Shown piece by piece: positions 3,471 to 54,377 of a stretch of 64,000 nt of DNA. Source of the DNA: Oscillospiraceae bacterium (GTDB lineage Bacteria; Bacillota; Clostridia; Oscillospirales; Acutalibacteraceae). The position numbers and the translations under genes are program-made. The stretch's first letter is position 1. Each line of letters starts with the position of its first letter. The notes beneath the pieces are model-generated. The model was not told where the DNA came from. It saw nothing but the letters and a program-made list of their open reading frames with translations, and did not search any database. The stretch is taken from the NCBI GenBank assembly GCA_902774035.1, contig CACYHA010000002.1, positions 47,119 through 111,118 of the forward strand. The letters are read 5' to 3'.

Positions 3471-3487
3471 CACAGAAAACAAGAAAT

Positions 3488-3533: not shown

Positions 3534-3544
3534 TGACAGCTCGC

Positions 3545-7557: not shown

Positions 7558-7558
7558 G

Positions 7559-10933: not shown

Positions 10934-11081
10934 CATTATGACTAAGATTGACTTTTTCTATGCTGTTGCCGGCAGAACCGGGAAAACTTCGGTCAGGAGG
11001 TTGGCCCGTGTCGCGGCAGCGGCGGCGAAAAAAGCGTTCGAGTGCGGCTTGCCGCAAGTTTTTCCCAAGGAGGCAAATCTT

Positions 11082-18968: not shown

Positions 18969-18999
18969 TCCGCGCCCGAAGGCTGACAACTGAATTTCC

Positions 19000-19033
19000 G
19001 CCGCGTACCCGAAAGGGTGCGCGGCGATTTTTT
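19000..19033 (+). terminator. Terminator of the P1 gene
   Basis: 11-bp stem (GCCGCGTACCC 19000-19010 with GGGTGCGCGGC 19015-19025, one G-T pair), GAAA tetraloop, then GATTTTTT. It lies 31 bp after the P1 stop. Confidence 0.88.
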
Positions 19034-19806: not shown

Positions 19807-19835
19807 TTGAAAATCCCCAAAAAACATGTTATACT
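19807..19835 (+). promoter_or_regulatory. Promoter of the P2 gene
   Basis: TTGAAA 19807-19812, 17 bp, TATACT 19830-19835. It uses the same -10 box as P1 and P4 and implies a leader of about 149 nt, but the downstream ATTATGACTAA element of P1 and P4 is absent. Confidence 0.72.
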
Positions 19836-19990
19836 TCATATAGTTATAAGTATCTCTATAGGTGTAATCTGCCCATTTTTCATCATTTTGTTGAAAATGA
19901 ACGTCAATTTGCATAAGTCAGTAGAATCATCCTATTGATTTTATATAGAGACAACCATCCATTTTTCCGCATTCTTAAGGAGGAATCAAC

Positions 19991-22900
19991 ATGAAACTTG
20001 GAAAGAAAGCCCTCAGCGTTCTGCTTGCGATCACCATGATCGTGACGAGCGTGTCGGTTTGTTTCTCATCGTTGGCCGCGGGTGACGTGGATACCCGTCT
20101 GTCCAACCTTGTGGGACTGATCGATTCCAACTACAACGCGCTGTCTGCCGCCATCGATTCCGGCGACACGAAGCGTGTGCCGACGCGGCAGACCAATGCC
20201 GCCTCGGTCAAGCTGCAGTTGGATACGCAGTTCGGCGCGTGGTATCAGATCGCGCAGGCATATGCGGCATATGTCAACGCCTACGCCTCCAACGCGAACC
20301 CGAAGAGCTACTTCCAGCTCGCCGATAACGCGTTTGCCTATGTGGATGCGCAGAGCGATCTGATGATGCCGGCGGCGAACTACAAAAAGGTGATCAACTA
20401 CTTCCGGTTCGCCAGCCCGACCGTCACGTATGACGAGTATAATAATGAAGTGTACACTTCTTATGAAGGCAAGGTCACGCTGACGATCAACTCCGGCTAT
20501 AATATCCTCGGCTATGAAACGGTCGAGGAGCTTGCGGCTGCCAACAGCGGCGAAGGCGAGCTTTACACCACCGCGAAGGTGATCTTCAACTGGACCTCCG
20601 CCGTTACCGGAGCGACGTTCAACGGACAGGAGGCCGATTTCCAGGGCGAGATCGATGTCGTTGTTCAGATGCTGCAGGATCTGCTGCACGACAGCGACAA
20701 CGACGGCGACAGCGACTTTGAGGAATGGTTCCATCTTGAACTGGATAACCCGGCGCTTCTGACGCAGGCGCAGCTCGAAGATCTTGTGACGAACGAAAAC
20801 GGTCCGTCTAATTTGCTGCGCGCTTATTCCGATGTCGGCAACTTCATCACCTCGCTGATCTTCCCCGCAGGCACCAAGGCGGAAGAAAAAGCGAAGGCTC
20901 TTTGGAATCACTACGTTGCGCCCGAGGTCGGCAAGACCTACGACGAGGCCATTGCATGGCGCAACACGACGCTGATGTATGTGGATTACTATTACTATGC
21001 CAAGCTGCTGATTCCTCAGATCGACGATATCATGGGCGCAGCGGATCTTCCCGCGGAAGAGACCTATACGGAAGAAGCGCTCACGGCAGAGACGATTCCC
21101 ACGATGTTCAACTATTTTGAATCTCGGATCGCGGAGACCTATGTGACGCTGACGACCACGACCGGCGCCGACGGCAGCGTGATCACGAATCAGATCTGCG
21201 ACACGATGAACGTGATGAAGTCGGACAATCAGTATTCCTCCAGATTCCTGAAGGTTGCCAACGGCCTTCGCCTGAATGTTGCGAAAAAGTATGCATATCT
21301 CAACGCTGACCTGCTGGCCAGCTTTACCGATACGGAGCATCCGATCCCGACCTATGACCACGGCAGCGAAAAGCAGACCGCGGCATGGAACAACACCGGA
21401 ACAAACTTCTGGGACGGCGTTGACGAAGCGGCCTACACGGAAGGCTGCGTGCTTGACCGCAACAACAACCAGATCGCCGACCGGCAGGAAGCGATCGAAT
21501 TCCTGGAGCAGGCCCGTCCGCTGAAGAACGGCATCGAGACCTACATCCTGAAATACACGAGCTTCAACGCGGTGCGTCTGTCCAAGCCGGAATCCGGCGC
21601 GGCGATCACCGAGAAGCTCTATGAGCGTTTGCTCAGCCAGATCAACATCTCCATCATCGACATCTACGGCACGGAAGACGCCACATTGAAGCTGAAGATG
21701 GACACCATCAAATCCTCCATTCTGGCCGGCAAGACCACCCAGGCGTTGCTGAAGGTCTTCTATGAGTACAACGCGGCATACGGTCCCGCCTATATCCTTT
21801 CCAGAGCGACGGACGAACAGAGCGTTGCCATCTTCGAATCCCTTTACGGTTCCGCGACCCAGACGGCAGCGGAAGGCTTTGCCGAATACACCGCCTTCCT
21901 GATCGAGCTGGAAGGTCGGATGCTCATGCGCAACCGCGACCTGATGGATCGTGTGGATAAATACTACAACGAAGGCGCCTATTCCGGCTCCGGCAGCTCC
22001 AACGACAAGATCACATACTGGAACTATGAATCCGTGATCTCCACCTATGAAGCGGTGGAAGACGGCATCACTGCGCTTGAGAGCGGTTCGAACCTGGAAG
22101 CCCGGGTCCTGAACACCGTCGGTTCGGCCATCGACAATGTGAACAACCAGTATCAGGATGACAACGGCCAGCCCTACAGCTACGACGCGATGCGCGACGA
22201 GACCTGGCCGACGATAGGCGATCTGAACACCCAGGCGACCCGCGTGCTGGGCTACTATAACGCTGCGCTCGAATTCAAAAGACAGTGGCAAAACTTCCGT
22301 AACGGCCTTGTCAACCAGTATAACGACGTTTCCAACGGTGACGTCACCATCATGTCCACCTTCATCACCGGCGGTTCCAGCGCACCCTACGGCTGGGTCA
22401 GAGGCGTCGGCAAGCTGAACGTGACCGCGATCCAGAACATTGCCGAACAGATCGGCCTGCTGGAAGGCGAGGAGACCATCTATGACCTGATGGACAACGC
22501 GATCAATGATCTGGACGCCATGCTGCTTTCCACCGACGTCGCGAACCTGCTTGACCGCTTTTTGACCTCCACCGACCCGGAGACGGGCGAAAAGGTCTCC
22601 TTCCTGGGAACCTGGGAATATGACTTCACCGAGGTCGACGGCACGGTGCACCACGGCAGATATTACACCAACTCCAACGGCGTCTTTACCGATCGCGCCG
22701 ACAATCAGTCGACCGCAGCGCAGATCGACAAGATCGAGAACCTGCGCGAATATCTGATCAATCTGATCATCAAGCTGCTCTACGGCGGCAAGATCCAGAC
22801 CGCCGCGATCAAGCTGATTTACCCGATGATCTACGGTCTCATCGGCGATCCGACCTCCGGCCCGCTCTATACCGGCGACGATCCCTTTGCCCCGAACGGC

Positions 22901-25900
22901 ATTTATCACATTCCCGTACTCGGCGACGCAAAGATGTATGTCATTCTGCCCGACGCGCTGACCGATGTGCTTCCGGTGATGCCGCACCACTTCTTCTGGA
23001 ATTCCTCCTACGACTACACCGGCGTCAGCGACGCATCCAAGAATGCGTGCATCTGGTATAAATTCTTCAACGGCGATTTCTTCGGCAACACCACCGCCCA
23101 GAAGAATAAATACGGCTACCCGAAATTCCTGCAGATGATCTCGACCGACAAGACGTCGACCGGCAGCGCCGGTCATGCGACCGTTTCCACGGAGAGCTAT
23201 GGCGTCGGCGGCGCTGATGGTTATCTCAGAGACTGGCACGCTGTGGAATGGGATATGTTCACTCCGCAGGAGATGTGGCACATCACGGACGCCCAGGGTC
23301 TGTATCACTCCCTGGCTGCCGCGCTCTGCGGCCTCGGCGCACCGCTTTCCATGCTGCTGCAGGCGGATCTGGACACCCTGCGTGTTTACAAAGCCGACGT
23401 GCTTGCCGGCGGCGACCTGACTGCGGACGTATCCGTGAACGCGAAGGGTCGTGCTGCCCTTTATGAAACCCTCTTCGTGCCGCTGTATCAACTGCTCGGC
23501 CTGACAGAGGGCTGGAGCCCGCAGCGCGGCGGTTACCATAGCTGGAGCGATATGCTGCGCGTGCTTGGCACCACGATGGTGAACGACTCCAAGCTCATCG
23601 TCTCCTACGGTAGCGAGACCAACACCTCCTACGGCGTCGGTCTGTGGCAGTATATGCTCGAGCCCATCATTTGGTGGATGAACAATGTCCTTTTCGTCAA
23701 TCCCGTCAAGACGATCCTCGAGCTGCTCCCGAACCTGCTTGGCGCTCTGGAATATGACCAGATCCTTCCGAAACTCAACAATGTTGCCGTTGCCCTTGGC
23801 CTTTCTTCCATCAAGCTCGGCATCTTCGGACCGTTCAACATCGGCGCACATCTGTATGATCTTGAAGTCGGCTCCCTTCTGAGCGGCCTCGGCGGCACCG
23901 TCGGCAACATTCTGAACGCAGTGAAGGGCGGCCTTGGCAGCGTGCTGGAGGCTCTGCTGCAATTCCGGTTCACCACGGTTGCTCCGCGGGATGCGACGCA
24001 GGCCGCGCCGCAGGGCGACGATGATGCGGATAATCCTGCCAACTTCCTGCATCAGGCCGTAAAGATACCGGTAATCCAGGATGACCCAAGCACCCCGGAT
24101 GTTGACGAAAGCCTCGGAAGCGAGAGTACCGTCGTGGGCTATCTGGCGACTGACCCGTCCACGGCGACCGAGAAGACCTGGACCAGTAAGGCTTCGGCGG
24201 TGAAATATCAGACCTATAAGGCCAACGGCACCGTTGACAAGACCTACTATATCACCGACATGGGTCTGTTGACGCAGACGCTGTTCAACCTCTTCTCCAC
24301 CAAGGAGACCACGGAAAAAACAGGTACGCCGAAGCTGAAATATACGGTTCACCTCAATGTCGGTTCCGACGGCAAAGTATATAACACGACGACCAGTACG
24401 CAGGACAGAAATGAAGACAATGAGCTTCTTTACACCAAGGGCGGTTTGTTCCTTGAGTGGATGATGAGGGGTCAGTCGATCAACATCAACACCTCCGGCG
24501 ACTACGTGAACAAGTCTCAGCTCTTCACGGTACCGCTGAGCCTGCCCGTCAACCGTCTGATGGCCTTCGCCTATAAGAGCCAGTATATGTTCCAAGGCGT
24601 GAAACCGCGCAAGGGCTACCACCTGAATGTGGACCCGGGCGACACGCTTCTGGTTCTGCTGCGCTGGATCATGGACGACGGAACGATCTATGTGCTCATG
24701 CCGCTGCTCAACGGCATCATCACCCCGGGTGAAGACGGTACATCCATCTTAGACACCATTGTTCCGCTGCTGGACGGCCAGGCCGACAACATCATGGCCA
24801 TCCTCGTGGCGTTGCTCAACGCCTACCATGTGGATTACATCAACTACGAGGATGTGGTCCTCACCGGAAAATACGTCAACACCTCCGGCGAAGATCCTGA
24901 GCCGTGGCTCGAAGGCAGCGGCGGCCAGTACGCCACCAAATTCGTCCTCGGTAAGAATCTGACGGATTCCTTTGCGGATTATGCGGATTACGAGGATGAT
25001 GAAGGCAACGTGCTGTCCAAGCCGATCGAAAAGGCCGACCTCGCCATCGCGAACGCCGACAAGCTGATCGCCTCCATGGTCCCGACTGTGGTCAACATGC
25101 TGGGCGACACGATCAACAACCTGATCTCGAACCTTGCGCAGAACGACGCCGCATGGGTCAGCGACATTCTCGAGCACGTACAGTCGGGCGACGAGAACTA
25201 TGACGAACTTGGCGAGATCATTTCCCGTCTCATCCTGAACAATGATTTCGTTGACCTGATCATGGGCATCGTCTTCGGCAACGCAGACCGCGAGGGCCTG
25301 ATGTCCTCCCTGCTTGTGGGCGAAGACGGCAAGATGAACTCCACCTTCGAGCTTCTGCTGAACCTGCTGAAGGACTTCGACATCGACTTCTCCCCCTATG
25401 CCATCTATCAGCGCGCCATCACCTCCGGCGACATGGGCTACAACCCGACGATCGCCAAATGGCTCGAACGTCAGGCCTACTTCTTCGTGAGAGGCGAATA
25501 TCCGGCCGCGAACGCCAGCGCCGGCGCGATCTGGGCAGTTGCCCAAGTCGGCTTTGAAGGCGACGCCACCAGAGATCCCATGAGCTGGATCGATGTGGGC
25601 TATGAGCGCGACTTCGAGTGGCTGACCACCGAGATCCCCAACGACGACGGTTCCAGCCTGAACGACCGCTTCCGCGCCGCGTATTCGGAGATGCTCGACC
25701 TCTTCGAATCTCTCCTTGCGCCCATCGCGCCGATCCTGAACCTCATTCTCACCGGCGAGAGCCTGACCATTGCCGACCGCCTGACCATCCGCGGCAACGA
25801 CGGTTACGGCAAGGCCATTGTTCCCATTCTGGAAGCCTTCAACCTGGACGGCGAACGCTACCAGGGCGATGACATTTCCGTCATGACGCAGAAGGAATTC

Positions 25901-43900: not shown

Positions 43901-46900
43901 TTCATCGGCGACGCCGAGACGTGGAAAGAGATCTCCGACAAGTACCAGAGCAACGTCTATGCCTACGCGACCTATGAACTGGACGGCGACGGCAAGATCG
44001 TTCTGGACGAACTGGGCAACAAGGTCTACGCAACGGATAAGGACGGCAACCTCGTCTACAAGTACTACTACGGCGAGGCAGGCGAGACCACCTACACCGA
44101 GACCAACGGCGATGTGGCTATCACCTACGACCTGATCCCGATGCTTGCCTTCAGCTATCAGACGACCAACGACGCGGGCGAAACGGTCACCAACACCGTG
44201 TACCTGCGCGAAGGCACCACAAGCTATGAGGACAGCAAGGGCAATGTCTACGACGACCTGACCGAAGTTTACCACTACACGTATCCGACCTACGCGACGG
44301 ATAAGAAGGGCAACTTCCTGAAGGACGAAGGCGGCAACTACCTGATCGCCACCGACGATCTGGGCAACACCATCTACGGCGACTACTACGGTCCGGACGG
44401 TGAAACGACCTACACTGTCGGCGAAGGCGACAAGGCTGTGACCTACACGCTCACCAACAAGGGCAGAGCGCAGCAGATCACGATGCACAGCACCTTCGAT
44501 TGGCAGATCGAGAATCTGAACGACATCATCAACCTTGTGTCCGACTTCCTCGCTCCGCTCGAAATCGTCTTCAAGATCATCCTCGCCGGCGATCAGATCA
44601 TCGTCATCGAAGACACGAGAGAAGACAATTCCCGCGGCGATGACATCCGCATCTATGGCGGCAACGGCTACAACTACGCGATCATTCCGCTGCTTGAGGC
44701 CTTCGGCATCACGGCAGAGGACGGCCTGAAGACTGCGGCGCAGTTCCAGACCGATGTGCTTGACAACCCGGCGGAAACCAGCGTCCACTACATCCTGAGC
44801 CTGATCTCCGGCCTGCTGGACGACGTTCTGGCCGCCCCGTTGACCACGCTGCTGAGCAAGCTCGCGAACCTGTGCTTCTTCATCGGTTCCAACGGTATCT
44901 CCACCGTCATGAAGAACCTGCTCGCCCCGGTCAACATCCTGATCAAGCAAGTGGACGACGCGGTACCGCTTGCCATCAACATCAACCTCAACAACCTCGG
45001 CGTTGACGGCGCTGAGATCGTGGAAATGTATCTCGGCAAGGAGCATCCGGGCGTTGCGGCCGGCATCTCGATCGACCTGACGGCGAACAAGCTGTCCGAC
45101 TTCATCAACGGCTTCATCTCCAACATCGAAATCGGCGACGCGACCCTTGAGCTCTCGCTCGACCTTGACTGGATCAAGCTCGGCAGATTCATGGCGAAGG
45201 TCGCGGACGGCTCGGAGATCTATGACGGCGCACCGCTGAAGCAGATCGAAACGCTGCAGGTCTACGACATCGGCATCGTGACGAACTCCACGATGCACGA
45301 CCTTGTCAACTACGTCGGCGACGTGACCGATACCTTCATCACGCTGCTTGACACGGCTCTGACGATCGACAACACCGAGAGCATCCGCAACCTGATCCTG
45401 AGCTTGCTGCCCGACGACCTTGGCGAAACCAGAAAGGTCATCGAAGATATCCTCGCGGATCCGGATGCCATCTACAACCTGATCATCGCTCTGCTGGTCC
45501 TGCTGACCACCGGCTACGAGACCGAGATCCTGCAGTACATCTACTACTTCCTCGGCTCCGTGGACTTCAACAAGGACGGCGTTGACAATGTCATCGAAAG
45601 CCTTGACACCGTGGTCTCCAGAGCGGCGCCCGCCATCATCGGCATCCTTGCTGACGGCGAACGCAAGAAGCCGGCAGACGAACAGAACGAACTGTTCATC
45701 GACATTGACGACCAGAACTTCACCACGCTGGCAGAGATCGTCGATTACCTGCTCGGCGAGATGCTGTTCACCGAGGACATGATGGGAACCATCACCTCCG
45801 CGGTGCTCAAGATCCTCGGCCAGTACATCACACCGGCCCTGGCCGCCCAGCTCAACACGCTGATCGGCATCGACCTGAGCGTGAAGTCGTTCCTTGACAA
45901 GGTCGACCATCCGGAATTCACCGCTTATATCCGCGATGGTCTGAGGGTCCCGACCGACGAGGACGGCGACGAAGTCTGGGACGAAGTTGCATGGGCAACG
46001 ATCCTTGAAAACCACAGCAGAACCGAAACGAAGGAAGACGGCACCTTGGAAACCATCGTGGATCCGATCTTCACGATTGCCCCGACCGGCGACAAGACGG
46101 CACAGGATGTCTTCCTGGATGACCTGTACAGCCTGTTGACGCCGTTCGACAGCCTGCTGGCGTTCCTGCTGACCGGCAAGGATCTGAAGCTGCGTGTGGA
46201 CGAAACGACCGATCTCGTTACGCTGAAAGCCGGTACCGGCTACAACGACGCGATCCTCGAACTGCTCTACAACGGTCTGGGCATCAAGGATATGAAGGTG
46301 CTCGACGGCGAAGGCCACCAGATCGGCATTGAACGCCGCACCGCAACGGCTTCGACCTCCGGTGTGGACGCGCTGCGCAACACCGTGAGCTACTACGTGA
46401 TCGACGTTCTGCTCCAGAACCTGAAGAACGCGCCGTTCACCACGCTGCTCACCATCCTCGGCAACCTGTCGTTCTTCATCGCGAACAACGAAGTCTCCGT
46501 CTTCCTGAAGAACCTGCTTGCGCCGGCGCTCGGCCTGCTCAACTCGATCAACAGCGTTCTGAGCATGGATCAGATCGACAGCATCCTCAAGAGCTTCATC
46601 AAGATCGGCGAAAAGAGCTACGGTCTGACCGACCTGCTCCACATTGCCGACGAGAGAGGCGCGAACCTTGTGGAACTGCTGAACAACCTGTTGTCGAAGG
46701 TCCAGATCTCCGACAACGACGGCAACGTCTATGACTTCGGCGTTCTGCCCAAGACGCTCTTCAAGGATATCGCCGCTGCGGCGATCAAGATCGACCGCAC
46801 CTACATCGCCGGCGACGCGCTCGTTCCCGAAACGACCCGCGTGTCCGCATGGCATGTGGAGATCGACGATACGTTGATGGCCATCCTCACCGCCTTCCTG

Positions 46901-49900
46901 AAGCAAGACTTCCTGGCGTCGCTGGCACAGTCCCTCGGCATTGAAGCCACCAACGAGGACGGCAGCGAGAACATGGTCTACAACATCCTGATGTCGCTCA
47001 ACGGCAAGGCCGACGCGGTCATCAACCTCCTGCTCAAGGTGTTCAATATGTACCTTGTGGAATTCAAGGTCTACAAGCAGGAAGACCTGGTCAAGTCCGA
47101 CGCTGCGAACACGACCAACCACTATGACGAAGGCAAGCAGGAGGCGCTGAACGACGCCATTGCGAAGATTGACGCCATGATCCCGGCCATCCTTGATCTG
47201 GCTGGCCAGGAGGGCGACCTCAAGCAACTGGTCTACGGCCTGATCGGCAAGGCCGACCTGGGCAACCTGATCATGGGCGCTCTGGTTCCGGTGCTCGCGA
47301 ACCTGCCGGCGGATACCATCGACACCATCCTCGGCTATGTCCGCACGCTGACCAACCTGACCGACCTTGACATCGCCCCGCAGACCTTCGCCCACAACAG
47401 CCACTTCGGCAGCAAGCTGGCCGACTTCATCGGCACGGCGGAGACCTGGAGCGACGTTCAGAAGAACAACACCCAGTACGTCTACACCTATCAGCTTGTT
47501 GAAAAGGACGAAGACGACAACATCACCCCGGTCGTGAAGGACGACGCGCCGGTCTATGAGACCTACTACAGCGCGAACGCCAACGAAACCACCTTCACCG
47601 ACGAAGAGCTCGGCTACACCTACACGCTGATCCCGATGTATCAGTACAGCTACACCGCGGACGGCGAAGAGCACATCGTTTACGCGAAGGCGGCAACCGA
47701 AACCTACACCGACGGCGACACCACCTACGACATCGTTCCGGTCTTCCATTACACCTATGAGACGACCGACGAAGAAGGCGTTGTCACCACGCACGACTAC
47801 TTCACCACCGAAATGGGTCTGACGACCACGACCATCGGTGAAGGCGAGGCCGCCGAAGAGGTCACATTGACCGATCTCGGCCAGGCACGTCAGACGGCGC
47901 TCCACTTCGATTGGGAGATCGAGACCCTCATGGATCTCGGCAACCTGATCTGCGACGTGGCACAGCCGCTGAACAAGATCCTTGCCCTTGTCCTGATGGG
48001 CGGCACCGAACGCAACCGCTTCGAACTGGTCGGCATCCATAACGGCAGCAAGATCACCGCCTTCGAGAAGCTCAACATCCTCGGCGGCAACGGATACAAC
48101 TATTCCATCATCCCGCTGCTTGAGCTGCTCGGCGTGAAGACGCTGAACGCCGAAACGAGAACCGACAAGGATACCGCCGTCCTGCTGAACCAGGTCCAGT
48201 ATGAGGCCGCGGTGGCAGAGAACTACGGCAACGTCCTCTACCCGATTTTGAACACGCTGTTCGAACGTGTGGACGACATCCTGTCCTCGCCGGTGGATCA
48301 AGTCCTTTCGATCTTCGCCCACCTGTGCTACATGATCGGCGAAAACAACCTGGAGAAGATCATTGCCAACCTGGTTGCTCCGATCAACAACCTCCTGGAG
48401 GCCGTGGATCAACTGATCCCGCTCGCCATCCGCATCGACCTTGCCGAACTGATCGGCGGCGGTGAGCACGGCGTGATGACCTTCATCGGTGTGGAACACA
48501 GCGGCGTTCCGGCCGGCGTCACGATCGCCCTGTCCAGCACGGATATCAACAACCTGATCTCCTCGCTCCTGGGCAACATCGAAATCAACGGCAACAAGCT
48601 GAACCTTGAAATCTCGCTCGACTGGAAGTGGATGGCCACCAAGGCTTCCCGCGACCTGAACGGCGACAACATCGCAGACACGCTCAAGAGCCAGCTCAAC
48701 AGCAAGTACGACATCTACAAGGATACCTCGAAGTATCAGGGCGTCCTGTACACGATCATCGGCGACAAGGCGAACGCCCTCATCACGCTGATCGAAGCGA
48801 TCCTGACCAAGGAGAATGTGGATGCCATCCTTGAAGCGCTTGACATTGACCTGAGCGATACCATCAAGGACATCATCGACAACATCATTGAAGATCCGAC
48901 CCAGATCCTCGACGTGATCACGACCCTGTTCGGCGACCTGACCCCGTTCGTACTTCCGGTACAGAACGTGAAGGTCACGCCGACGATGATGGGCGCCGAC
49001 TACCGTGCGTATCCGAGTGCTCTGACCAAGGCTAACGCCGCAGTGGTGGCCGACCGTCTGGACGGTGTGATCAACACCATCATGGGCATGGCGAACGCCG
49101 GCACATTGAAGGATCTCGTCGCGAAGAACGTCTTCAAGGATGAGCTGATCTCCAACCTGATGAACAAGATCGCCGGCGCGTTCGGCGGCTTCGAAGGCGC
49201 GATGGAGATCATCACCAAGCTCAGCGGCGGCCAGATCGACCTGTCCCTGGCGCACTTCACCGAGTACTACAAGTCCATCGGCTTCACGCCGGCGTATGCG
49301 GCGCTGATGGATAAGACCTCCTGGGCGGAAGTCGACTTCACCGGCACGGCTTGGGGCATCACCGATGCCTACACCTTCGCTGACACCTTTGCGCAGTTGT
49401 TCCTGCCGCTGGAGAACGTGCTGAAGCTCCTGCTGCTCGGTTCTGCCGAATCCAACGACGGCAAGGCTCTGGAGCTGACGCTGCTCGACGCGGTCACCCT
49501 GACCGGTACCGACGCCTACGATTCCGCGATCATCCCGCTGCTTGAGGCTCTCGGCCTGAGGGCGGCGCAGATCAAGTCGCTGGCTGAATACCGCAACGCT
49601 GTGAAGGCAGATCACACCCAGTTGCTGCGCTACATCTTCAACTGCATCGCGGTCCGTCTGGATGAGATCCTTGCGGCGCCGGGCGACCAGCTTCTGAACA
49701 TGCTTCCGACTCTGGCGTACTTCTTCGGCGGCGGCGGCCTGTACTGCATTGCACAGAACCTGCTTGCTCCGCTGTTCAAGGTGGGCATCGTGGTCGCGAA
49801 GGTCTTCGGTTACGACCTGACGAGCTTCCTTGACCTCGGCACGCTGCTCAACGAGCTTGTCCACATCAATCTGAACATCGGCGGCAGCCCGCTGTCGATC

Positions 49901-50704
49901 ACGATCCCGACGGCTGACTTCTACAAGCTGGCCATGTACGGTTCGACCGGCTCGACGGAGATCTCCACCTCCCGTTCGAAGGAAGTCAACTCCTTCGCGA
50001 CGCCGCTGTCGCACAAGAAGGTTAAGGATTACCTGACCAACTACCCGAAGGGCTATGAGGATCGCGAGAACAAGTCGACGCAGACCCACCTGACGGCGAA
50101 CAAGGGCGACACGCTGGTCGTTGCACTGACCTGGCTGCTGCACGCTCTGAGCTATCCGGAGAACCGTGTGGCGCTCGCCACCTGGATCGGCGGCCTGCTC
50201 GGCCTGAACGATTCCGCAGTGTCCATGTTGAAGACGTTGTTCAACAACCTGTTCAATGTGGCGACCACCGGCAACCTTGCCGAACTGATCGTCTCCGCTG
50301 TGATGAACATGCTCGGTATCGGCATCACGATCAACGCTCTGTACAAGGGCGACTATGACACCGTGGTCTCGATCCTGCAGCAGATCTTCGACACCATCGG
50401 CCAGGGCGTGGATCCCGAAAGCGCATACGCAGGCGTTGCCAAGGCGCTTGACGAAATGAGCGGCGGCACATGGTCCGGCACTGTTGGCGGCCCGACGAAT
50501 CCGTCCAACCCGACAGATCCGACGACACCGTCCACTCCGACCGATCCGACCACGCCGACGAACCCGACAAATCCGACCCAGCCGACCACAGCGCCGTCCG
50601 GCGGCAGCATGACGCAGACGACCGGTGAGAGCCTGAACTTCTTCCAGAGACTGATCAAGGCCATCCGCGAGTTCTTCCAGAAGCTGTTCAGCTTCGGCCG
50701 CTAA
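19991..50704 (+). CDS. P2: giant 10,237-residue secreted protein built from long leucine-rich helical repeats
   Basis: One uninterrupted 30.7-kb frame; start ATG 19991 after AAGGAGG, with a signal peptide (LSVLLAITMIVTSVSVCFSS, cleavage near SLAA). Residues 234-246 (DSDNDGDSDFEEW) and 489-500 (DRNNNQIADRQE) look like TSP3/EF-hand calcium loops. From about residue 1157 a helical unit recurs, with blocks in order: LDxxIxxxxPxLL; DNxLxxxIxxxLxxLLG; GIDLTPxxF...TWxE; WGIDxxxxFxxxxxxLLxPLxxVLxLLLxG; GxxGYxxAIIPLLEALG; PxxTLLxxLxNLxYFIxxNGL...NLLAP. Between TWxE and WGID many units carry Tyr/Thr and DxxGN hairpin insertions. The C-terminus is a Pro/Thr linker (10168-10203) and an aromatic amphipathic segment (10213-10237). 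Cysteine is rare. I recognise no named family for the unit. Size recalls giant adhesins such as Ebh, but sequence does not. Strong codon bias suggests high expression. No LPXTG; mode of retention unknown. Confidence 0.9.
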   Translation: MKLGKKALSVLLAITMIVTSVSVCFSSLAAGDVDTRLSNLVGLIDSNYNALSAAIDSGDTKRVPTRQTNAASVKLQLDTQFGAWYQIAQAYAAYVNAYASNANPKSYFQLADNAFAYVDAQSDLMMPAANYKKVINYFRFASPTVTYDEYNNEVYTSYEGKVTLTINSGYNILGYETVEELAAANSGEGELYTTAKVIFNWTSAVTGATFNGQEADFQGEIDVVVQMLQDLLHDSDNDGDSDFEEWFHLELDNPALLTQAQLEDLVTNENGPSNLLRAYSDVGNFITSLIFPAGTKAEEKAKALWNHYVAPEVGKTYDEAIAWRNTTLMYVDYYYYAKLLIPQIDDIMGAADLPAEETYTEEALTAETIPTMFNYFESRIAETYVTLTTTTGADGSVITNQICDTMNVMKSDNQYSSRFLKVANGLRLNVAKKYAYLNADLLASFTDTEHPIPTYDHGSEKQTAAWNNTGTNFWDGVDEAAYTEGCVLDRNNNQIADRQEAIEFLEQARPLKNGIETYILKYTSFNAVRLSKPESGAAITEKLYERLLSQINISIIDIYGTEDATLKLKMDTIKSSILAGKTTQALLKVFYEYNAAYGPAYILSRATDEQSVAIFESLYGSATQTAAEGFAEYTAFLIELEGRMLMRNRDLMDRVDKYYNEGAYSGSGSSNDKITYWNYESVISTYEAVEDGITALESGSNLEARVLNTVGSAIDNVNNQYQDDNGQPYSYDAMRDETWPTIGDLNTQATRVLGYYNAALEFKRQWQNFRNGLVNQYNDVSNGDVTIMSTFITGGSSAPYGWVRGVGKLNVTAIQNIAEQIGLLEGEETIYDLMDNAINDLDAMLLSTDVANLLDRFLTSTDPETGEKVSFLGTWEYDFTEVDGTVHHGRYYTNSNGVFTDRADNQSTAAQIDKIENLREYLINLIIKLLYGGKIQTAAIKLIYPMIYGLIGDPTSGPLYTGDDPFAPNGIYHIPVLGDAKMYVILPDALTDVLPVMPHHFFWNSSYDYTGVSDASKNACIWYKFFNGDFFGNTTAQKNKYGYPKFLQMISTDKTSTGSAGHATVSTESYGVGGADGYLRDWHAVEWDMFTPQEMWHITDAQGLYHSLAAALCGLGAPLSMLLQADLDTLRVYKADVLAGGDLTADVSVNAKGRAALYETLFVPLYQLLGLTEGWSPQRGGYHSWSDMLRVLGTTMVNDSKLIVSYGSETNTSYGVGLWQYMLEPIIWWMNNVLFVNPVKTILELLPNLLGALEYDQILPKLNNVAVALGLSSIKLGIFGPFNIGAHLYDLEVGSLLSGLGGTVGNILNAVKGGLGSVLEALLQFRFTTVAPRDATQAAPQGDDDADNPANFLHQAVKIPVIQDDPSTPDVDESLGSESTVVGYLATDPSTATEKTWTSKASAVKYQTYKANGTVDKTYYITDMGLLTQTLFNLFSTKETTEKTGTPKLKYTVHLNVGSDGKVYNTTTSTQDRNEDNELLYTKGGLFLEWMMRGQSININTSGDYVNKSQLFTVPLSLPVNRLMAFAYKSQYMFQGVKPRKGYHLNVDPGDTLLVLLRWIMDDGTIYVLMPLLNGIITPGEDGTSILDTIVPLLDGQADNIMAILVALLNAYHVDYINYEDVVLTGKYVNTSGEDPEPWLEGSGGQYATKFVLGKNLTDSFADYADYEDDEGNVLSKPIEKADLAIANADKLIASMVPTVVNMLGDTINNLISNLAQNDAAWVSDILEHVQSGDENYDELGEIISRLILNNDFVDLIMGIVFGNADREGLMSSLLVGEDGKMNSTFELLLNLLKDFDIDFSPYAIYQRAITSGDMGYNPTIAKWLERQAYFFVRGEYPAANASAGAIWAVAQVGFEGDATRDPMSWIDVGYERDFEWLTTEIPNDDGSSLNDRFRAAYSEMLDLFESLLAPIAPILNLILTGESLTIADRLTIRGNDGYGKAIVPILEAFNLDGERYQGDDISVMTQKEFNQLIYRTAASATDRNGGYHASSGTIVKGQHQNARGKWVENRFAPLVKNPLDPLLQAILTLLIGSGDMPGLLETPLEIVFSVLPNIAYFLYRYQREDTGEETSNFSLAVQNLIEPVMTILDIVDPVLSRVVKLDLGALLDSVLDLESLLNQVLTRLVDSDWKSLSVEQQTNASKDYISLDILNFGRLSAEGAVKIDTKAKTCRTEIALGQSTNGASLPNRNQFTKFNGGGGGQMLITLIRTVMTKEFVKMVGKLVGDLLTENEGLTEDEQTLISNANILDIVDQVVNQLNRDVTDETGAYNGEPVDAITGILVDVLVGYKIHDKDEGNVAISFFYELMNRFREEVTPEQQQEAWNTYGIEHDGYDWEHATKNGEAVSETNPALYDSAKVEQAIENLDYVIQKAVPDVLTALRDAGMMDLGNQIELVYDYTTGNGLWELLKAVFSGTLFTDDLVNSVANLVFGLLGQGSTAIDLVLKLLKAAGIDFTASRFLSYEDDETGEIKHTALFEYLTYGFALDNTGEVIFKDSSKLTAYDKNLYDASLSEEELEDAELPFTWGQIIKNHSEDGYEFTEDGLVVLDEETGEPKRSVTVTTDEEGIETTTYNTALIPSGKVHMQVTEEGETQGYYRYTYEYDGQEVEYVSPYKFLKALAIEEIRDTEAGTTEVQVNLTQTKEEELPMTQTIIKSEIVKLKPVYNEDLSTYMWSWGIDAQTIYKEDAPTEVDTNATYVAKKNYFIDAVWYMIEPLGELLATLFAEHDYSLFNGGINIAGSDGYGNVLLPLFHALAVDQTLEYLNTTQITEGEGSEYPNMLAYINSNKTEDEAIEPTLWTSEQYKEIVFDNEGNYTSEGMHRAMKKIANVVLGFIEVAATYPIATVANALPTLAYFILGDGLTTMIANILLPITTLTEKLKEIIFVDVNQIGAGILDLIESGSWTTFQKALEQYYYTDEDGRVVSKLVEGASYSFTDSLLRLLCSKISLSLPNLLGGDETAYSIVLFLDKDAEHAAQEKLAEGTAEGRQQASEIRTNALKHFLRKLAAIGDSYTMLNEKTGRNEACPVDSVTLQTYDEHGQPIYEMNGDTYILDENQNKIPVTKTYVKENPTDEQGLTSDLVRINVNGQVSVSKSEVLMFLFDFIFENTTIKTMLESILELNLHDDNDQIENPELIDVLLTNVLNNETALVNVLVSLLTGYETLPGQPITLNNIEAEYHYPFYEDAGFETLEEVKVAKENGADVSEVSRVKTATAIDNLDSLVGTILNLFKSNMFAEDDPETPADETGFLAKMDLGLNANADLTVKNLVNALIEKYLYDDESLSNILSMLINLLGHSSASKVVNIVLTILDGAGYSFTPQTVKRNVTGVMDGLADIIGNKTKWSQVADEHLQYVYYYTTPAAEEGGEPTETNLYSPLDVFEMRKDPNTGELLLEDTKGVDHVVEARFVQATDKDGNALWIDVDDPTADPVSTKEDGKTYEPLYTSEQEQMVRLSLNFGFTDEMTTFEKRDKFVEIVWSLIAPLHGVFELLLTNQPLVIYDRIKINGLPGYANVIIHLFNALAISKLEDPDGNPYLNTVVFDNVRSQPVTRTFDNEGGVNYSETYNLNDRNFYADEDSFLYAVYGVDRVPGGEGNATDNYKMLLKVLVDAIFALVDSLCERPVNTLLTMLPYLCRYIYSDAIDLMIENLLKPVTTILDMIEKIYSFDVLSIIKNVLENVITSAIRNSENQNDDDDDDVNTTSAPTDMPTVGAALARYLLNGIEKAEGKQSEEGFESMDEFLSVALEPLVASDGNENGDEGNNIFSEKDILEKNDQKLMEIVWKFVNNFTIKMDREQDGVTKQIILPLSAIIPNTLMEDIASCAWLYNNDAPNRTPKTVVDVASRTIAARYMVSEAEDYAADRESVLLRLLNILVFNDGIRSFAVDLLGIDYELLGLDKEYGAEFDGSNTDFLLAVLIESIFNDAEPVLRLLIDLLSWYEIEYAPKSVRTEYELNYVGDFDYEGNGINKTQLEALPGNLDDLIGAIVPLLGTVMNMSSLSSLNFSGADTSEVVKNLLVQLLQDQTKDGKKTNGVLTSLIIALVNLLGGNDTMGTILDMLPGIIRGLDLRLSYFKSISPAFNEFFEGCKTWADAYNRFKTKARWSLMTEEQTSVRQGNVVEIFNNATDTTPVKRLVINGTTIMVFNVTTKKDPADETQTIEEETLVNILVAEDDVTYVYGVDSNGQQKEKPDTCYLTEPGYQGYRIELSDGRAKKTEKLDEHGNKIEIGRDENDQPIYEMVYVYAYEVVDFGGADADSFGINTYEKLTGFLADLLTPLVPVFRVLLTEEDLVALDGVHIVGGDGYDRAIIPLFEMLGIPNILSKKDFLELVSASSYTATPEQIAQAKEDFGYVDDADAAAAVKRQLADKAFANQIVTYLDAAITKLSNAPITTIVDLLPQLVFFVYSNGLEQAIEQLLAPLVTLIDLVNDITGAEVRIDKAGGTNKDGEKIFSALPIYKFLVNLIKGDDPENSTIVKLFGGVEALDAVDDFYDLTHLILSCEGLQNLIAGLMEDNDINSLGTYEIKNGDETITKEILPETLFESVLELTSRIVDVETVRLFGSSDEEGRFPDMPRTVKGVLANRADILVRVIGDVLLGGDLLPSIIGPTEGIVATIIGNITGENRYNVLKVLLAYFNDYNVKPMVLEYLSFEKIDYPYETYTDSTTLSSRKLRRAIRKLDKTLTTLVPELLQIISTNLDDDSTFKVLIDRIYKKGQTIEDFVDELLQQYAIKDDIINTIVGALIGLLGLDAADTFETIMPYLDLLVGIDLTPAGYAEAAGDNNVFRDFLDNAMNEALARKPMKDQVDDEGNFVYETDDDGNFILGEDGQKIVVQVPRDYKDITWSEIAALYKQHVYVYKTYKFEYVTEKDDEGHPILDEDGNVTFVKDENGNRIVQLDENGDPVFATTTTGNRIPVTDEKGMIVYREYTAMNAETLATMRADVEIEGVNVTVDLLPAIRQQYEVPATEAGKEPTINTIYAPAEQTTYTVIRDQEPIHYELRQVSHYTYTVASGDTQTIADYYTSDPTEKETLQAKIDGVTRNLTLVEETVQQERAAISDINEETHFVYSTYQYTFDANGDIAVDEDGNPIYALDGDNNKIVATDGEGNVILRDYYTHNADEIANRAANVKIGRFTVPVTLIPVIAYTCTTSEGEQTVYLPEGSTTATVGGEEVTVTAVSPTVADVQTISRAKDWGIDSITGGTNHERARAKLDRFVEILWGLVSPLEFVLNFLFRGEEGDDIELLKGEGEKGVLTVKGNNGYKTAIYELLRVLSLDATTLTTPEEYNSTARGNKKTLTAITDPIINLAYDICNKPLETLLTVLAKLSYFVANDGLEAVVTSLISPALALLDIADPIVGDVINDLLSGLINDYLADYMPEELGTTDEDGKKHYTLKDLLGIAGDDGSNIVNILNELLSKLIIGLNEDASAKKYVYRYDTGRTDEEGNPIYGEYYSRKSTETTFTVPSEVEEYGGETFDLEPLYVYRYETLVLDRNGNPIPTYELDEQGHEILDENNEPVVATDEHGNVIYEAAKDANGRPIYAEHYDVEGVTTFKQKLGETEVTFDLTPMYAYVYYYDVYGDGDDMSIEIFYDPDPDLQEYTFGGKTYSIADGTMENRGLARYRAVEKLVVGRVFKMLKPTFFTDYAQHAVLINEQTAASTVYYWYHNIVRDEDDNIISDILTKINSKDYRVSEHGEIEPSMTKYVVTNFTADIADSLTYLLETVVSERMLKVIDEELLGNLLEEGTAKEMVGGILTSLIENEFGELALADIVSSLFENYNITYLDLSGRLIDTDHTAYENLEPEENKAQVATLSRKLDNVIKEALPVLPGLLSEFMDVDTSRTNEDGSLNIMGTIMSILTSHKDDADKSHILRDIIFDLLDELVFNDQMMSTIVSYLPQVLGGLDDILKYVKLTGFNLVYEEYLENLKENAGADSGAYQGLRELAYDQVEHKDATSWAEILDLMREYVYKYVTGQDEFGNNVYGTYVSNEANETVYTDEEGHEYPLVKMIAYRYREVNTDENGNGIPGSFKENRKGEPVYGTYYDVPGVTTYTKRVGNTTITYDLEALHRYTYTINRGRSNAKKVVVYLPAGETHITVGTTEDNMRIYRLTDHGEVRYEEIRIKLINWGIDDAENHRDAFIKVLSDLLAPFTDVLRAVLQGRYLTIVARPDRDANGKILKDDFGNPIYTYSPVEDDPGQSGEELKNGYIEIMGSNGYSEALVPLFEALGLRAGEGEGELISHTAFGQLDTIEKILNYLIGLLYAIIGNIADGPFTFLGENLASLLYFVANDGVYKLVESAIAFVNGALDLVSPIFEFELPLDMLKLADTTTQVLDEEGNPKIGTDGKVETTTTAGLLSLINGFMPLKAAEEEGAEDEPILEITLDMLFSLIGKIGEYEVLETVRTTADTHLLTELGESTQRPGVPFEEGKIDTIVGKPEYLLTGLLDFIISTPAITDLIESVLPDSMKETVMDLLDSTNKQETINGIVNVLLTLFNKYVVTYLAIQDPEEDLKLKKEAINYYGTTGDPRKDRAVTKGETENALKIIDELITPILSIFGMKSLNEMVNGFLFDNDTLSGLIGTAIGALATIDPGTLSSIDAILNVLKSLDIIDLQLTPNGYCGALKDDYGTFKIFLKEAIEYGIHKKDENGKLIRDGEDNLILDYKLDEENEKIPVYITDDEGTKDYSYVLDENEQKIPTYLTDETGDYILDGEGNRIEVGETDKTNGYVLDSTGRQIPIYEINYELKSEKDATWADVEAYLKSFDKYVYTYTHYVLEGDEIIEATEEYYDEQAGLRTIVEGGRTLKVYPVNEEKDGETVQKTKNFYDWGVSNNDTLISLVCELISPLNVLLELVLGGGVQNFDPNEEDPIYGKSISAFKEINIMGGSGYDYAIIPLFEALGLTVKDNEGHGDFLSAEAYVDEIEYGTSPLEPILDTLLNSVLTPEHLDKPLEYILSIVANLAYTISKDGLTTIVSNLIAPVSALIRAVKDLMPIAIVIDLSALLKDDEDKDEGEDEEEPAEGEEEEDNSIVHFWLGEDVERNGAEVGLTIDLNAITLQDIIEGLVAKFVDGLSFQFRFSKLAAQSALLENGEIVYTDSAVDESWDILLGRGGVQSTPVNRLWGKNIKGDVADTFLAITDMLLTSDNVQAILDMVGFDVNSIDNATLRDILNRLIESPSKAVDAIIKLVNLTYSADTLPMVFYYVGTLVYDYSRGDTTKEGTTAAIDKLDRVINHAIPRVLHVLAQQEDAAALIVELDRKFNTVDEETGKVTYGATISNLLNYVLETYAFNDTMINNIMSMLVNALGNMDEDTFKMISNIVKEALGIDLTPAGVAGASDGTNLDNFFGDATTWSELAQMYQRYVYKYATYKLDADGKAVLDEEHNPVIAEDADGNVIYETYYDTAADKTSYIDDAGNEYTLIPQVLYKYATYKTDDSGALVIEDGAPVVATDKDGKIIYADYTGDAGETELPAKIGEAEVTYTLIPVHTYTYTIPAEYEDEEAKTVEITDLAGITEVTIGAGDAAVTYTLTDKGQTHATAVHVDANWGVDAKTTFAEKKDQFLAIIYEVTAILEPVLVWLFKGENLRLLIDDLQLPGAMGYDHALRPLLRAFGVKLRTGDQLGGDATANDMLKEVISGLLTFVDNLAETPIKTLLNTIGELSFFIANNGVNQVLTNLLKPIESFVYSLGIITPEDVDALLGEYLVINDVHYGLTDLKNIAGKDGSGLVDFLNQILQGVNVTDEEGNKIPVTAELSPKLFEDLARTCIRITDPANKYDQTHDDPRPAEDTEDNIVNDWTVDTTDVLMYLLQTVFSNEILDLICTIAKIDKTGDVGAIVMGLAGKQDEVVDILVMLLTEYSVEYEKIDSAVHTKLVPQLKEGTEATKEQIGTALAGLDTLLTTLIGFFTGGKDLEGLINGLLVENDLGNLLMNALIPVLAGLDLDMILDYVRTLTNIDLDITPQAFATDLFGSRLPEFIGDAETWKEISDKYQSNVYAYATYELDGDGKIVLDELGNKVYATDKDGNLVYKYYYGEAGETTYTETNGDVAITYDLIPMLAFSYQTTNDAGETVTNTVYLREGTTSYEDSKGNVYDDLTEVYHYTYPTYATDKKGNFLKDEGGNYLIATDDLGNTIYGDYYGPDGETTYTVGEGDKAVTYTLTNKGRAQQITMHSTFDWQIENLNDIINLVSDFLAPLEIVFKIILAGDQIIVIEDTREDNSRGDDIRIYGGNGYNYAIIPLLEAFGITAEDGLKTAAQFQTDVLDNPAETSVHYILSLISGLLDDVLAAPLTTLLSKLANLCFFIGSNGISTVMKNLLAPVNILIKQVDDAVPLAININLNNLGVDGAEIVEMYLGKEHPGVAAGISIDLTANKLSDFINGFISNIEIGDATLELSLDLDWIKLGRFMAKVADGSEIYDGAPLKQIETLQVYDIGIVTNSTMHDLVNYVGDVTDTFITLLDTALTIDNTESIRNLILSLLPDDLGETRKVIEDILADPDAIYNLIIALLVLLTTGYETEILQYIYYFLGSVDFNKDGVDNVIESLDTVVSRAAPAIIGILADGERKKPADEQNELFIDIDDQNFTTLAEIVDYLLGEMLFTEDMMGTITSAVLKILGQYITPALAAQLNTLIGIDLSVKSFLDKVDHPEFTAYIRDGLRVPTDEDGDEVWDEVAWATILENHSRTETKEDGTLETIVDPIFTIAPTGDKTAQDVFLDDLYSLLTPFDSLLAFLLTGKDLKLRVDETTDLVTLKAGTGYNDAILELLYNGLGIKDMKVLDGEGHQIGIERRTATASTSGVDALRNTVSYYVIDVLLQNLKNAPFTTLLTILGNLSFFIANNEVSVFLKNLLAPALGLLNSINSVLSMDQIDSILKSFIKIGEKSYGLTDLLHIADERGANLVELLNNLLSKVQISDNDGNVYDFGVLPKTLFKDIAAAAIKIDRTYIAGDALVPETTRVSAWHVEIDDTLMAILTAFLKQDFLASLAQSLGIEATNEDGSENMVYNILMSLNGKADAVINLLLKVFNMYLVEFKVYKQEDLVKSDAANTTNHYDEGKQEALNDAIAKIDAMIPAILDLAGQEGDLKQLVYGLIGKADLGNLIMGALVPVLANLPADTIDTILGYVRTLTNLTDLDIAPQTFAHNSHFGSKLADFIGTAETWSDVQKNNTQYVYTYQLVEKDEDDNITPVVKDDAPVYETYYSANANETTFTDEELGYTYTLIPMYQYSYTADGEEHIVYAKAATETYTDGDTTYDIVPVFHYTYETTDEEGVVTTHDYFTTEMGLTTTTIGEGEAAEEVTLTDLGQARQTALHFDWEIETLMDLGNLICDVAQPLNKILALVLMGGTERNRFELVGIHNGSKITAFEKLNILGGNGYNYSIIPLLELLGVKTLNAETRTDKDTAVLLNQVQYEAAVAENYGNVLYPILNTLFERVDDILSSPVDQVLSIFAHLCYMIGENNLEKIIANLVAPINNLLEAVDQLIPLAIRIDLAELIGGGEHGVMTFIGVEHSGVPAGVTIALSSTDINNLISSLLGNIEINGNKLNLEISLDWKWMATKASRDLNGDNIADTLKSQLNSKYDIYKDTSKYQGVLYTIIGDKANALITLIEAILTKENVDAILEALDIDLSDTIKDIIDNIIEDPTQILDVITTLFGDLTPFVLPVQNVKVTPTMMGADYRAYPSALTKANAAVVADRLDGVINTIMGMANAGTLKDLVAKNVFKDELISNLMNKIAGAFGGFEGAMEIITKLSGGQIDLSLAHFTEYYKSIGFTPAYAALMDKTSWAEVDFTGTAWGITDAYTFADTFAQLFLPLENVLKLLLLGSAESNDGKALELTLLDAVTLTGTDAYDSAIIPLLEALGLRAAQIKSLAEYRNAVKADHTQLLRYIFNCIAVRLDEILAAPGDQLLNMLPTLAYFFGGGGLYCIAQNLLAPLFKVGIVVAKVFGYDLTSFLDLGTLLNELVHINLNIGGSPLSITIPTADFYKLAMYGSTGSTEISTSRSKEVNSFATPLSHKKVKDYLTNYPKGYEDRENKSTQTHLTANKGDTLVVALTWLLHALSYPENRVALATWIGGLLGLNDSAVSMLKTLFNNLFNVATTGNLAELIVSAVMNMLGIGITINALYKGDYDTVVSILQQIFDTIGQGVDPESAYAGVAKALDEMSGGTWSGTVGGPTNPSNPTDPTTPSTPTDPTTPTNPTNPTQPTTAPSGGSMTQTTGESLNFFQRLIKAIREFFQKLFSFGR
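23459..49800 (+). repeat. Array of 12 full (plus one degenerate) helical repeat units within P2
   Basis: The GYxxAIIPLLEALG block begins at 25802, 28214, 30512, 32888, 35759, 38624, 40640, 42773, 44666, 46238, 48092 and 49514 (residues 1938, 2742, 3508, 4300, 5257, 6212, 6884, 7595, 8226, 8750, 9368, 9842). A degenerate copy (LYETLFVPLYQLLGL) lies at 23459. Each block is followed 60-110 residues later by the YFI...NLLAP block. Intervals are 804, 766, 792, 957, 955, 672, 711, 631, 524, 618 and 474 residues, so units shorten toward the C-terminus. Confidence 0.85.
36272..36850 (+). repeat. Tyr/Thr-DxxGN module inserted at an alternative site in P2
   Basis: Residues 5428-5620. In sister units the host reads LLNNLLSKVQISDNDGNVYD followed by LPKTLFKDIA. 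Here it reads ILNELLSKLIIGLNED, then the module (YVYRYDTG, GNPIYGEYY, DLEPLYVYRYET, ATDEHGNVIYE, DLTPMYAYVYYY, ending NRGLARYRA), then VFKMLKPTFFTDYAQ. Most modules in P2 sit instead between TWxE and WGID (for example about 34540-35550, 37880-38340, 42062-42600, 43960-44480, 47476-47905). Confidence 0.65.
50492..50599 (+). repeat. Pro/Thr-rich linker near the P2 C-terminus
   Basis: Residues 10168-10203 are tandem PTxP/DPT triplets (PTDPTTPSTPTDPTTP), a typical extended, wall-spanning or glycosylated linker. It separates the helical repeats from the final amphipathic segment. Confidence 0.85.
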
Positions 50705-50740
50705 GGTTCAGGGAAAGGGACACACACAAACCAATCCAAA

Positions 50741-50774
50741 AAGATCCCGGTGCTTTGGCACCGGGATCTTTTCG
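50741..50774 (+). terminator. Terminator of the P2 gene
   Basis: 13-bp stem (AAGATCCCGGTGC 50741-50753 with GCACCGGGATCTT 50758-50770), TTTG loop, T-rich end. It begins 36 bp after the P2 stop. The rest of the 332-bp gap to P3 shows nothing notable until the P3 promoter. Confidence 0.88.
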
Positions 50775-50992: not shown

Positions 50993-51018
50993 AAGTGTAC
51001 ACTTGTGATACTGTACAC
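50993..51018 (+). promoter_or_regulatory. Palindromic operator candidate at the P3 transcription start
   Basis: AAGTGTACACTT (50993-51004) is a perfect 12-bp palindrome touching the -10 box. In addition GTGTACA (50995-51001) and TGTACAC (51012-51018) form a 7-bp inverted repeat around 10 bp. The position over +1 suits a repressor; the regulator is unknown. Confidence 0.5.
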
Positions 51019-51036
51019 AGAAAGGATGATCATACA

Positions 51037-54225: not shown

Positions 54226-54377
54226 AATTATGACTAAAAATGGCCTTATTGCCATTTCATCTATGGCGTTTTGCCGCCGGGCCCGCAGCGTTTTCGGCAA
54301 TGGAATCTGCCGCTGCAGCGCCCCTTCATCCGCACACCCGCCATCAGAACGACCCTTTATCTAAGGAGGAAATATTT

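Follow-up and report, generated by a model that had tools for sequence, protein, structure and literature searches.

We examined a 64,000-nucleotide stretch of DNA (hereafter, the window) from an Oscillospiraceae bacterium (contig CACYHA010000002.1, positions 47,119 to 111,118; in our numbering G000:C2:47119-111118), in which a single uninterrupted gene (19991..50704, + strand) encodes a secreted protein of 10,237 residues, here called the giant. The source genome, G000, is a 2.30 Mb draft in 48 contigs and is 85% complete. With confidence that is about evenly balanced, we interpret the giant as a surface array that is tethered to the cell envelope and works in the manner of Ebh, and that belongs to an unnamed family of repeat proteins whose short members would partner a Type VII ABC transporter. 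This interpretation draws on the modular architecture of the giant, on the distribution and order of its repeats among relatives, and on the genes that adjoin its two-repeat relatives.

The giant gene is intact and under purifying selection

A preliminary description of the window, made from the letters alone, had reported a 30.7-kb frame without interruption and a product of about 1.1 MDa. Both statements proved accurate: the frame at 19991-50704 (+) comprises 10,237 codons with a lone stop at its very end, and the computed product has a mass of 1.13 MDa, an isoelectric point of 4.29, and 25 cysteines. In an 85%-complete draft of 48 contigs, one might suspect a misassembled chimera or a frame that is open by chance, all the more as one antisense frame is nearly open too; we reject this explanation, whose probability we regard as close to negligible, and agree with the earlier view that the frame is no assembly artefact. 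Stop-free frames of more than 8,000 residues occur in at least 16 of the 34 genomes of the same genus (G000, G001, G002, G003, G004, G006, G008, G011, G014, G016, G018, G019, G026, G030, G031, and G033), and for several of these there are public contigs of metagenome-assembled genomes (MAGs) of matching length. Inside the gene, we found no near-identical DNA repeats able to mislead assembly; the only tandem DNA array is the Pro/Thr linker described below. Recent duplication within the gene was likewise rejected, the best internal DNA copies reaching 60-79% over short stretches.

The giant frame is under purifying selection. Its nearest relative among the genomes fetched, G018, is 79.6% identical over 10,165 aligned residues, and the codon alignment of the two genes gave nonsynonymous (dN) and synonymous (dS) divergences of 0.138 and 0.607, that is, a dN/dS of 0.228, with values from 0.174 to 0.273 across 11 blocks of 1,000 codons (the final block being shorter). 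Counted on the window strand of this alignment, the two other sense frames contain 434 and 295 stops, and the three antisense frames 439, 504, and 4. An antisense open frame of 5,208 residues lies opposite the giant (27479-43105, -). The nearly open antisense frame has a dN/dS of 1.34, as against 0.228 for the sense frame, and the long antisense frames are therefore shadows of the giant, explained by codon bias.

Architecture of the giant protein

The protein opens with a signal-peptide region, as had been proposed (residues 1-30, 19991..20080, +; MKLGKKALSVLLAITMIVTSVSVCFSSLAA), which contains the hydropathy maximum of the entire chain at residues 7-25. It is followed by an N-terminal region without the repeat (residues 31-1089, 20081..23257, +). 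The calcium-loop-like stretch that the preliminary description placed here (residues 234-246, DSDNDGDSDFEEW) is not conserved, G018 reading LDSDFETW at the same place, and a calcium-binding N-terminus was accordingly dropped.

The remainder of the chain is dominated by a repeat that had been listed in at least 12 units. An iterated profile of its conserved core recovered 13 (E 1e-24 to 1e-51), one more than that list. The cores, all on the + strand, occupy residues 1090-1267 (repeat 1, 23258..23791, profile E 1e-24), 1865-2111 (repeat 2, 25583..26323, E 7e-39), 2689-2888 (repeat 3, 28055..28654, E 2e-38), 3446-3673 (repeat 4, 30326..31009, E 2e-43), 4253-4435 (repeat 5, 32747..33295, E 2e-44), 5182-5367 (repeat 6, 35534..36091, E 9e-44), 6120-6324 (repeat 7, 38348..38962, E 7e-39), 6814-7002 (repeat 8, 40430..40996, E 1e-50), 7532-7696 (repeat 9, 42584..43078, E 5e-40), 8161-8336 (repeat 10, 44471..44998, E 2e-51), 8667-8860 (repeat 11, 45989..46570, E 5e-35), 9298-9488 (repeat 12, 47882..48454, E 6e-49), and 9775-9956 (repeat 13, 49313..49858, E 2e-42). 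The period is about 400 residues, and the two motifs quoted earlier, although conserved, are not the unit itself: both are parts of one core within that period. A 404-column consensus was derived from 119 short periods; 4,747 residues of the giant fall on model columns, and insertions within the matches account for 1,570 more. Longer spacings are mainly due to Tyr/acid-rich linkers, which run from a TWxE box to the next WG[IV] box, as does the one at residues 7352-7545 (42044..42625, +; from a TWxEL box to the next WGV box). By the same iterated profile, 14 giants carry 13 to 18 repeats each, the counts being minima for G002, G004, G006, G019, G026, and G031, whose fetched sequences lack the N-terminal end.

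Leucine is very abundant in the amphipathic repeat, and the hydrophobicity of its core has a helix-like periodicity near 100 degrees in 9 of 23 overlapping 18-column spans (p <= 0.007). This periodicity supports the earlier reading of a Leu-rich helical repeat, and we infer that the repeats are helical modules.

Close to the C-terminus lies a Pro/Thr linker (residues 10168-10202, 50492..50596, +), rightly noted before, which contains a 27-nucleotide tandem repeat (50492-50588); it is also present in G018 and is missing from the three other giant C-termini compared. The chain ends in a tail that is marked out by its hydrophobic moment and its conservation (SLNFFQRLIKAIREFFQKLFSFGR, residues 10214-10237, 50630..50701, +). 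In this tail (NFFQRLIKAIREFFQKLF), the inner 18 residues have a hydrophobic moment of 2.30, matched by none of 5,000 shuffles. No LPXTG motif was found in the last 60 residues, the end being an amphipathic helix, and a comparable Phe/Ile/Lys-rich end was recognised by eye on 14 giants, on 3 giants of a second genus, and on four proteins of 4 to 6 repeats. Identity to G018 is lowest of all parts in the N-terminal region (66.7%), and amounts to 76.4% in the linkers (taken as a class, with limits drawn by hand), 84.6% in the cores, and 97.0% in the last 33 aligned residues.

The repeat matches no named family

The preliminary description could not assign the unit to a named family, and our profile searches agree, with no confident match to a characterised family in Pfam, NCBIfam, PHROGs, or PDB sequences. 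At curated cut-offs, Pfam returned nothing for the whole chain in overlapping pieces, for 25 single repeats, or for the repeat consensus, and NCBIfam and PHROGs returned no family for the parts of the chain searched. Against PDB sequences, the best E-values were 0.12 (phmmer with residues 8161-10237), 0.58 (profile A3), and 1.1 (the 404-residue consensus). Over the whole chain, Pfam detected no FIVAR or GA modules, no RTX calcium nonapeptides or beta-sandwich repeats, and no dockerin or cohesin domains. We dropped as chance matches DUF5052 and other weak Pfam hits, phrog_18290 (E 0.009), V-type ATPase subunit E (E 0.011), Lipoprotein_Ltp (E 0.048), R. bromii Amy4 (E 0.12, within the Pro/Thr stretch), and Huntingtin HEAT, whose match was sub-threshold (E 0.043; score 14.6 against a cut-off of 31.2 bits). 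HEAT and TPR solenoids have a period of 30-45 residues, compared with about 400 for the repeat of the giant.

Distribution and order of the repeats

Residues 8161-10237 of the giant, used as a query, found matches in 44 of 118 related genomes, including all 34 of the same genus (the source genome among them) and two from other families in the order. At E <= 1e-6, the repeat profile matched 63 of 398 genomes and 21 of 135 genera of the bacterial family, 5 of 394 genomes sampled over the order (one outside the family), and, over the class, the source genome itself as the single match among 391. The best reading is that the repeat family is nearly confined to one bacterial family. Among 84,980 named genomes scanned with a nine-residue pattern, 22 loci were recovered, all from uncultured genomes whose record titles read Clostridia, Oscillospiraceae, Ruminococcaceae, Ruminococcus, or Eubacteriales bacterium. 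Where a gut source was named, it was sheep, goat, roe deer, dairy cattle, or water buffalo, and one further source is rabbit, going by the sample name 'Lapin'; the sequence closest to the last repeat of the giant came from a goat rumen genome (L049, 85%).

Within the source genome, the profile found three genes: the giant, a two-repeat gene in contig C11, and a one-repeat gene in contig C13. The last of these (G000:C13, L098:5374-7725, -) encodes a secreted protein of 784 residues with a similar C-terminal end, which is perhaps close to the ancestral form; it lies beside a gene that we take to be secA-like. Proteins of intermediate size, with 4-6 repeats and about 2,480-3,535 residues, were encoded at four further loci that we read, of which L095 is truncated at the slice boundary.

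The repeats of different giants correspond by place. When each of the 207 repeats from 14 giants was compared with those of other genomes, its closest counterpart there stood at the same index (207/207, with 14.9 expected if a repeat of that genome were drawn at random); the index is counted from one end and is shifted by one in G002, whose first repeat was not fetched, and near relatives such as the window giant and G018 raise the number. In 3 of 207 cases, a still closer repeat lay within the same protein. Compared position by position, the repeats of the giant match those of G001, G030, G008, G016, and G004 at 13 of 13 places each, and the 18-repeat giants G033 and G026 match one another at 18 of 18. 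Judged by pairwise identity, on which all these statements rest, repeat order is kept within groups of giants and not across all of them.

A second genus, g233, also has giants: G583 and G648 carry 18-repeat frames of 10,516 and 10,643 residues. From repeat 6 onward, most of their next-best matches are to the same two proteins or to G746 of the same genus, at up to 70% identity, and not to the same-numbered repeats of the window's genus. Going by these best BLASTP matches, the g233 giants look to have expanded separately. Their first two repeats find the next-best match in a different g233 giant (27-33%), and the earliest repeats may therefore be shared.

Two-repeat relatives adjoin ABC-FtsX genes

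The two-repeat relative has a near-full-length match in 29 of the 34 same-genus genomes and a partial one in 3 (G020, G021, and G029). In 17 such proteins, the two repeats are spaced 383-394 residues apart; among the 12 two-repeat proteins that contributed to the 404-column consensus, the spacing is 385-394. At every one of the 17 loci examined (11 from the window's genus, 3 from g233, and 3 from g216), an ABC-FtsX gene follows 0-21 nucleotides 3' of the two-repeat gene on the same strand. These neighbours were recognised by an ABC start motif together with a Walker motif, 3 of the 17 frames being cut by the end of the slice, and Pfam identified ABC_tran and FtsX in the neighbour at L090. A hydrophobic segment lies in the last 80 residues of 16 of the 17 two-repeat proteins. 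Beyond one chance match, Pfam at E <= 0.1 gave no family for three of these proteins, nor did NCBIfam for two, and HlyD/RND-type adaptor domains were absent from both sets of results. At L022-L026 and L090, the pair of genes often stands near MarR-type regulators and an ABC exporter pair (by Pfam at L090 only), surroundings that resemble a drug or toxin efflux locus.

Type VII ABC transporters hand force or cargo to extracytoplasmic partners (PMC5985334). The two-repeat relative is like the MacA/YknX adaptors of such transporters in being extracytoplasmic and membrane-anchored, and its gene, which adjoins ABC-FtsX, occupies the spot expected of an adaptor gene. It is unlike these adaptors in matching no adaptor family, in carrying its anchor on the C-terminal side, and in consisting of an unnamed repeat. 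Most simply, the two-repeat protein would be the extracytoplasmic partner of a Type VII ABC transporter.

A proposed tethered surface array and alternative readings

In the surface-array model, the giant would be secreted through its Sec-type signal peptide and remain attached to the cell envelope, its C-terminus held at the membrane by the amphipathic tail; this tethering is suggested because a true transmembrane helix occupies the corresponding place in the short relatives. The repeats would form helical modules, and the array would extend outward, carrying the variable N-terminal region, and act as a spacer, a shield, or an adhesive fibre, like staphylococcal Ebh. The repeat family most likely originated in a protein that was tethered to the membrane outside the cytoplasm and partnered an ABC-FtsX transporter (Type VII, MacB-like); it would then have expanded by repeat addition in at least two genera.

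Several points weigh against this model. A signal peptide, great size, and repeats are seen directly, the surface location is a prediction, and the action as a spacer or shield is suggested by analogy with Ebh. Our searches found no ligand or binding domain in the giant. In the window, no ABC-FtsX gene adjoins the giant, and its link to the transporter runs through homology; moreover, in the two-repeat protein of G704, the last 80 residues contain no hydrophobic segment. Both G026 and G033 have giants and match the two-repeat protein only weakly, and the giant therefore does not need the two-repeat protein. Finally, positional agreement falls to 6 of 13 repeats between the window giant and G033, to 5 of 13 with G026, and to 10 of 18 between G033 and G016.

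Other functions can be envisaged for the same architecture. It is possible, though not likely, that the giant captures hydrophobic ligands: each repeat would be a helical bundle that binds hydrophobic compounds, such as lipids or lipopeptides, in the extracellular space, the two-repeat form would exchange cargo with its ABC-FtsX partner, and the giant would be a many-site version held at the envelope. A very Leu-rich, amphipathic repeat would suit this role, as would the position of the two-repeat genes against ABC-FtsX genes at 17 of 17 loci, the second ABC exporter and MarR-type regulators nearby in L022-L026 and L090 (Pfam: L090 only), and the retention by each repeat of its own identity, which would be expected of distinct binding sites. 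Against it, the giant does not adjoin a transporter gene, and among solved structures the profile finds no lipid-binding protein (best E in PDB 0.58). An unlikely but more ambitious version of the array itself holds that it was amplified from an ABC-FtsX partner into an ordered set of 13-18 place-specific helical repeats throughout the genus, passing 10,000 residues separately in two genera, and that it would serve as a scaffold or multi-site binder and not as a plain spacer.

The place-specific conservation of the repeats also bears on whether the giant is a true adhesin, whose fast-changing N-terminal region would bind plant fibre, a host glycan, or another microbe at the end of a repeat stalk. 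The N-terminal region is indeed the least conserved part, the related MAGs come from the guts of ruminants and other herbivores, and giant surface proteins elsewhere serve adhesion (PMC12863079). Yet in residues 1-1861 Pfam at E <= 0.1 detected no adhesive domain, whether carbohydrate-binding, Ig-like, or of another type, and stalk repeats that are individually conserved by position exceed what a plain spacer needs; we regard this role as rather unlikely. The regular modular build with long linkers would also fit a polyprotein that is cut in its linkers into about 13 separate secreted proteins, and the general suggestion that extremely large proteins are cut has been made, with reference to a preprint (PMC13104272). 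However, the linkers vary in length and sequence, no common site was seen by eye in 50 segments (collected with a regular expression that also caught non-linker segments, so that 50 is not a linker count), and a position-specific repeat order with a single conserved tail makes sense only for a whole chain, which leaves the polyprotein very improbable.

Comparison with known giant proteins

The likeness to the largest bacterial adhesins, to which the giant had been compared, holds for size class and goes no further. The repeats of Ebh are helical bundles with FIVAR/GA modules, and its C-terminus has a membrane segment. The giant has no FIVAR/GA, a period of about 400 residues with long linkers, and a different tail, and comes from another bacterial group; on these sequence features, it is not a member of the Ebh family. 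What the two share is a mass of about 1.1 MDa, secretion, and repetitiveness, Ebh being located on the cell surface, where it shields other adhesins of Staphylococcus aureus in a size-dependent manner (PMC6548404).

The extracellular proteins Giant1-5 of Apilactobacillus kunkeei, of 3,000-8,000 residues, are likewise very large, belong to a Gram-positive gut symbiont, and are encoded in a cluster of large genes (PMC12863079). Compared by description only, Giant1-4 differ in their predicted N-terminal beta-solenoids, as against the helical periodicity found here. Proteins of about 40,000 residues with numerous InterPro domains are described from Oscillospiraceae MAGs (PMC13104272); by that description, they resemble the giant in extreme length, in their origin from uncultured gut bacteria, and in a family name that several of its relatives bear, and differ in being four times longer and in their many InterPro domains, whereas no domain was found in the giant. 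RTX adhesins are also very long tandem-repeat surface proteins (PMC7493085), whose repeats are calcium beta-sandwiches, unlike the Leu-rich, apparently helical repeats of the giant, in which the calcium-like loop is not conserved.

Signals and neighbouring genes

The signals around the gene are consensus matches only. A promoter-like TTGAAA-17-TATACT with TG ahead of the second hexamer lies at 19807..19835 (+; 10/12 consensus matches), where 2 promoter-like sites were found against 0.7 expected, and a ribosome-binding-site-like AAGGAGG was read 7 nucleotides 5' of the ATG (19977..19983, +). A terminator-like hairpin after the upstream gene (18999..19026, +; a 12-pair stem with 10 GC pairs and a T tract) separates that gene from the giant; with 4 such sites in the region against 1.8 expected, the hairpin is weak evidence alone. 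A 17-pair hairpin lies 3' of the giant gene at 50737-50774.

The upstream gene (10938..18968, +) encodes a secreted protein of 2,676 residues with a List_Bact_rpt match and Cys/His-rich repeats, and is kept beside the giant in 5 of the 6 genomes that could be judged, the source genome included. G018 has a homologue directly 5' of its giant (65.6% identity over 2,349 aligned residues), G001, G016, and G014 have a gene with the same kind of Cys/His tail there, and G033 has none; the eight other giants were not judged, the relevant side being outside the fetched slice or too short. Two Tyr-rich stretches (residues about 1495-1640 and 1905-2140), which resemble the linkers of the giant, interrupt the upstream protein, and the G018 homologue carries the same stretches. 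BLASTP between the linkers and the upstream gene in a four-protein set reached a best E of 2e-6, a search of the source genome with one linker returned the upstream gene only at E 0.09-2.9, and phmmer at E 0.01 found no link in either direction between these stretches and the linkers. An in-frame mobile element common to both genes was left unproven.

On the 3' side, two genes (50995-53619 and 54240-60911) encode large secreted proteins rich in CxxC repeats, the first with a sub-threshold fn3 match, and these two, the giant, and the upstream gene make a run of four consecutive genes for very large secreted proteins. A C-terminal motif, CxWCGExHTGFxGxxxxFFHxI, followed by an amphipathic end, occurs at 60825-60908 and at 18870-18953. 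It was found at 25 places in the source genome (E < 1e-3), two of which are rows of the query alignment, 21 lying in frames of more than 200 residues and the C-terminal position not being confirmed for all. NCBIfam returned no match for three tails in the window, and the motif resembles a tail for sorting or anchoring, as yet unnamed.

Implications

Giant repetitive surface proteins are already known as a kind, and very large Oscillospiraceae proteins have been mentioned before (PMC13104272). A literature search, with bioRxiv and most subscription journals outside it, found no paper on the repeat of the giant; within the reach of our searches, the family of repeats, the retention of their order, and the short form linked to a transporter are new. 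The genes beside the short relatives suggest that the repeat originated in the envelope or with a transporter, and offer a first clue to its function. The two-repeat form, with about 880 residues, is expressible and makes an unknown protein of 1.1 MDa a testable question. The kept repeat order, together with what appears to be a separate second expansion, makes this family a good case for bacterial protein gigantism.

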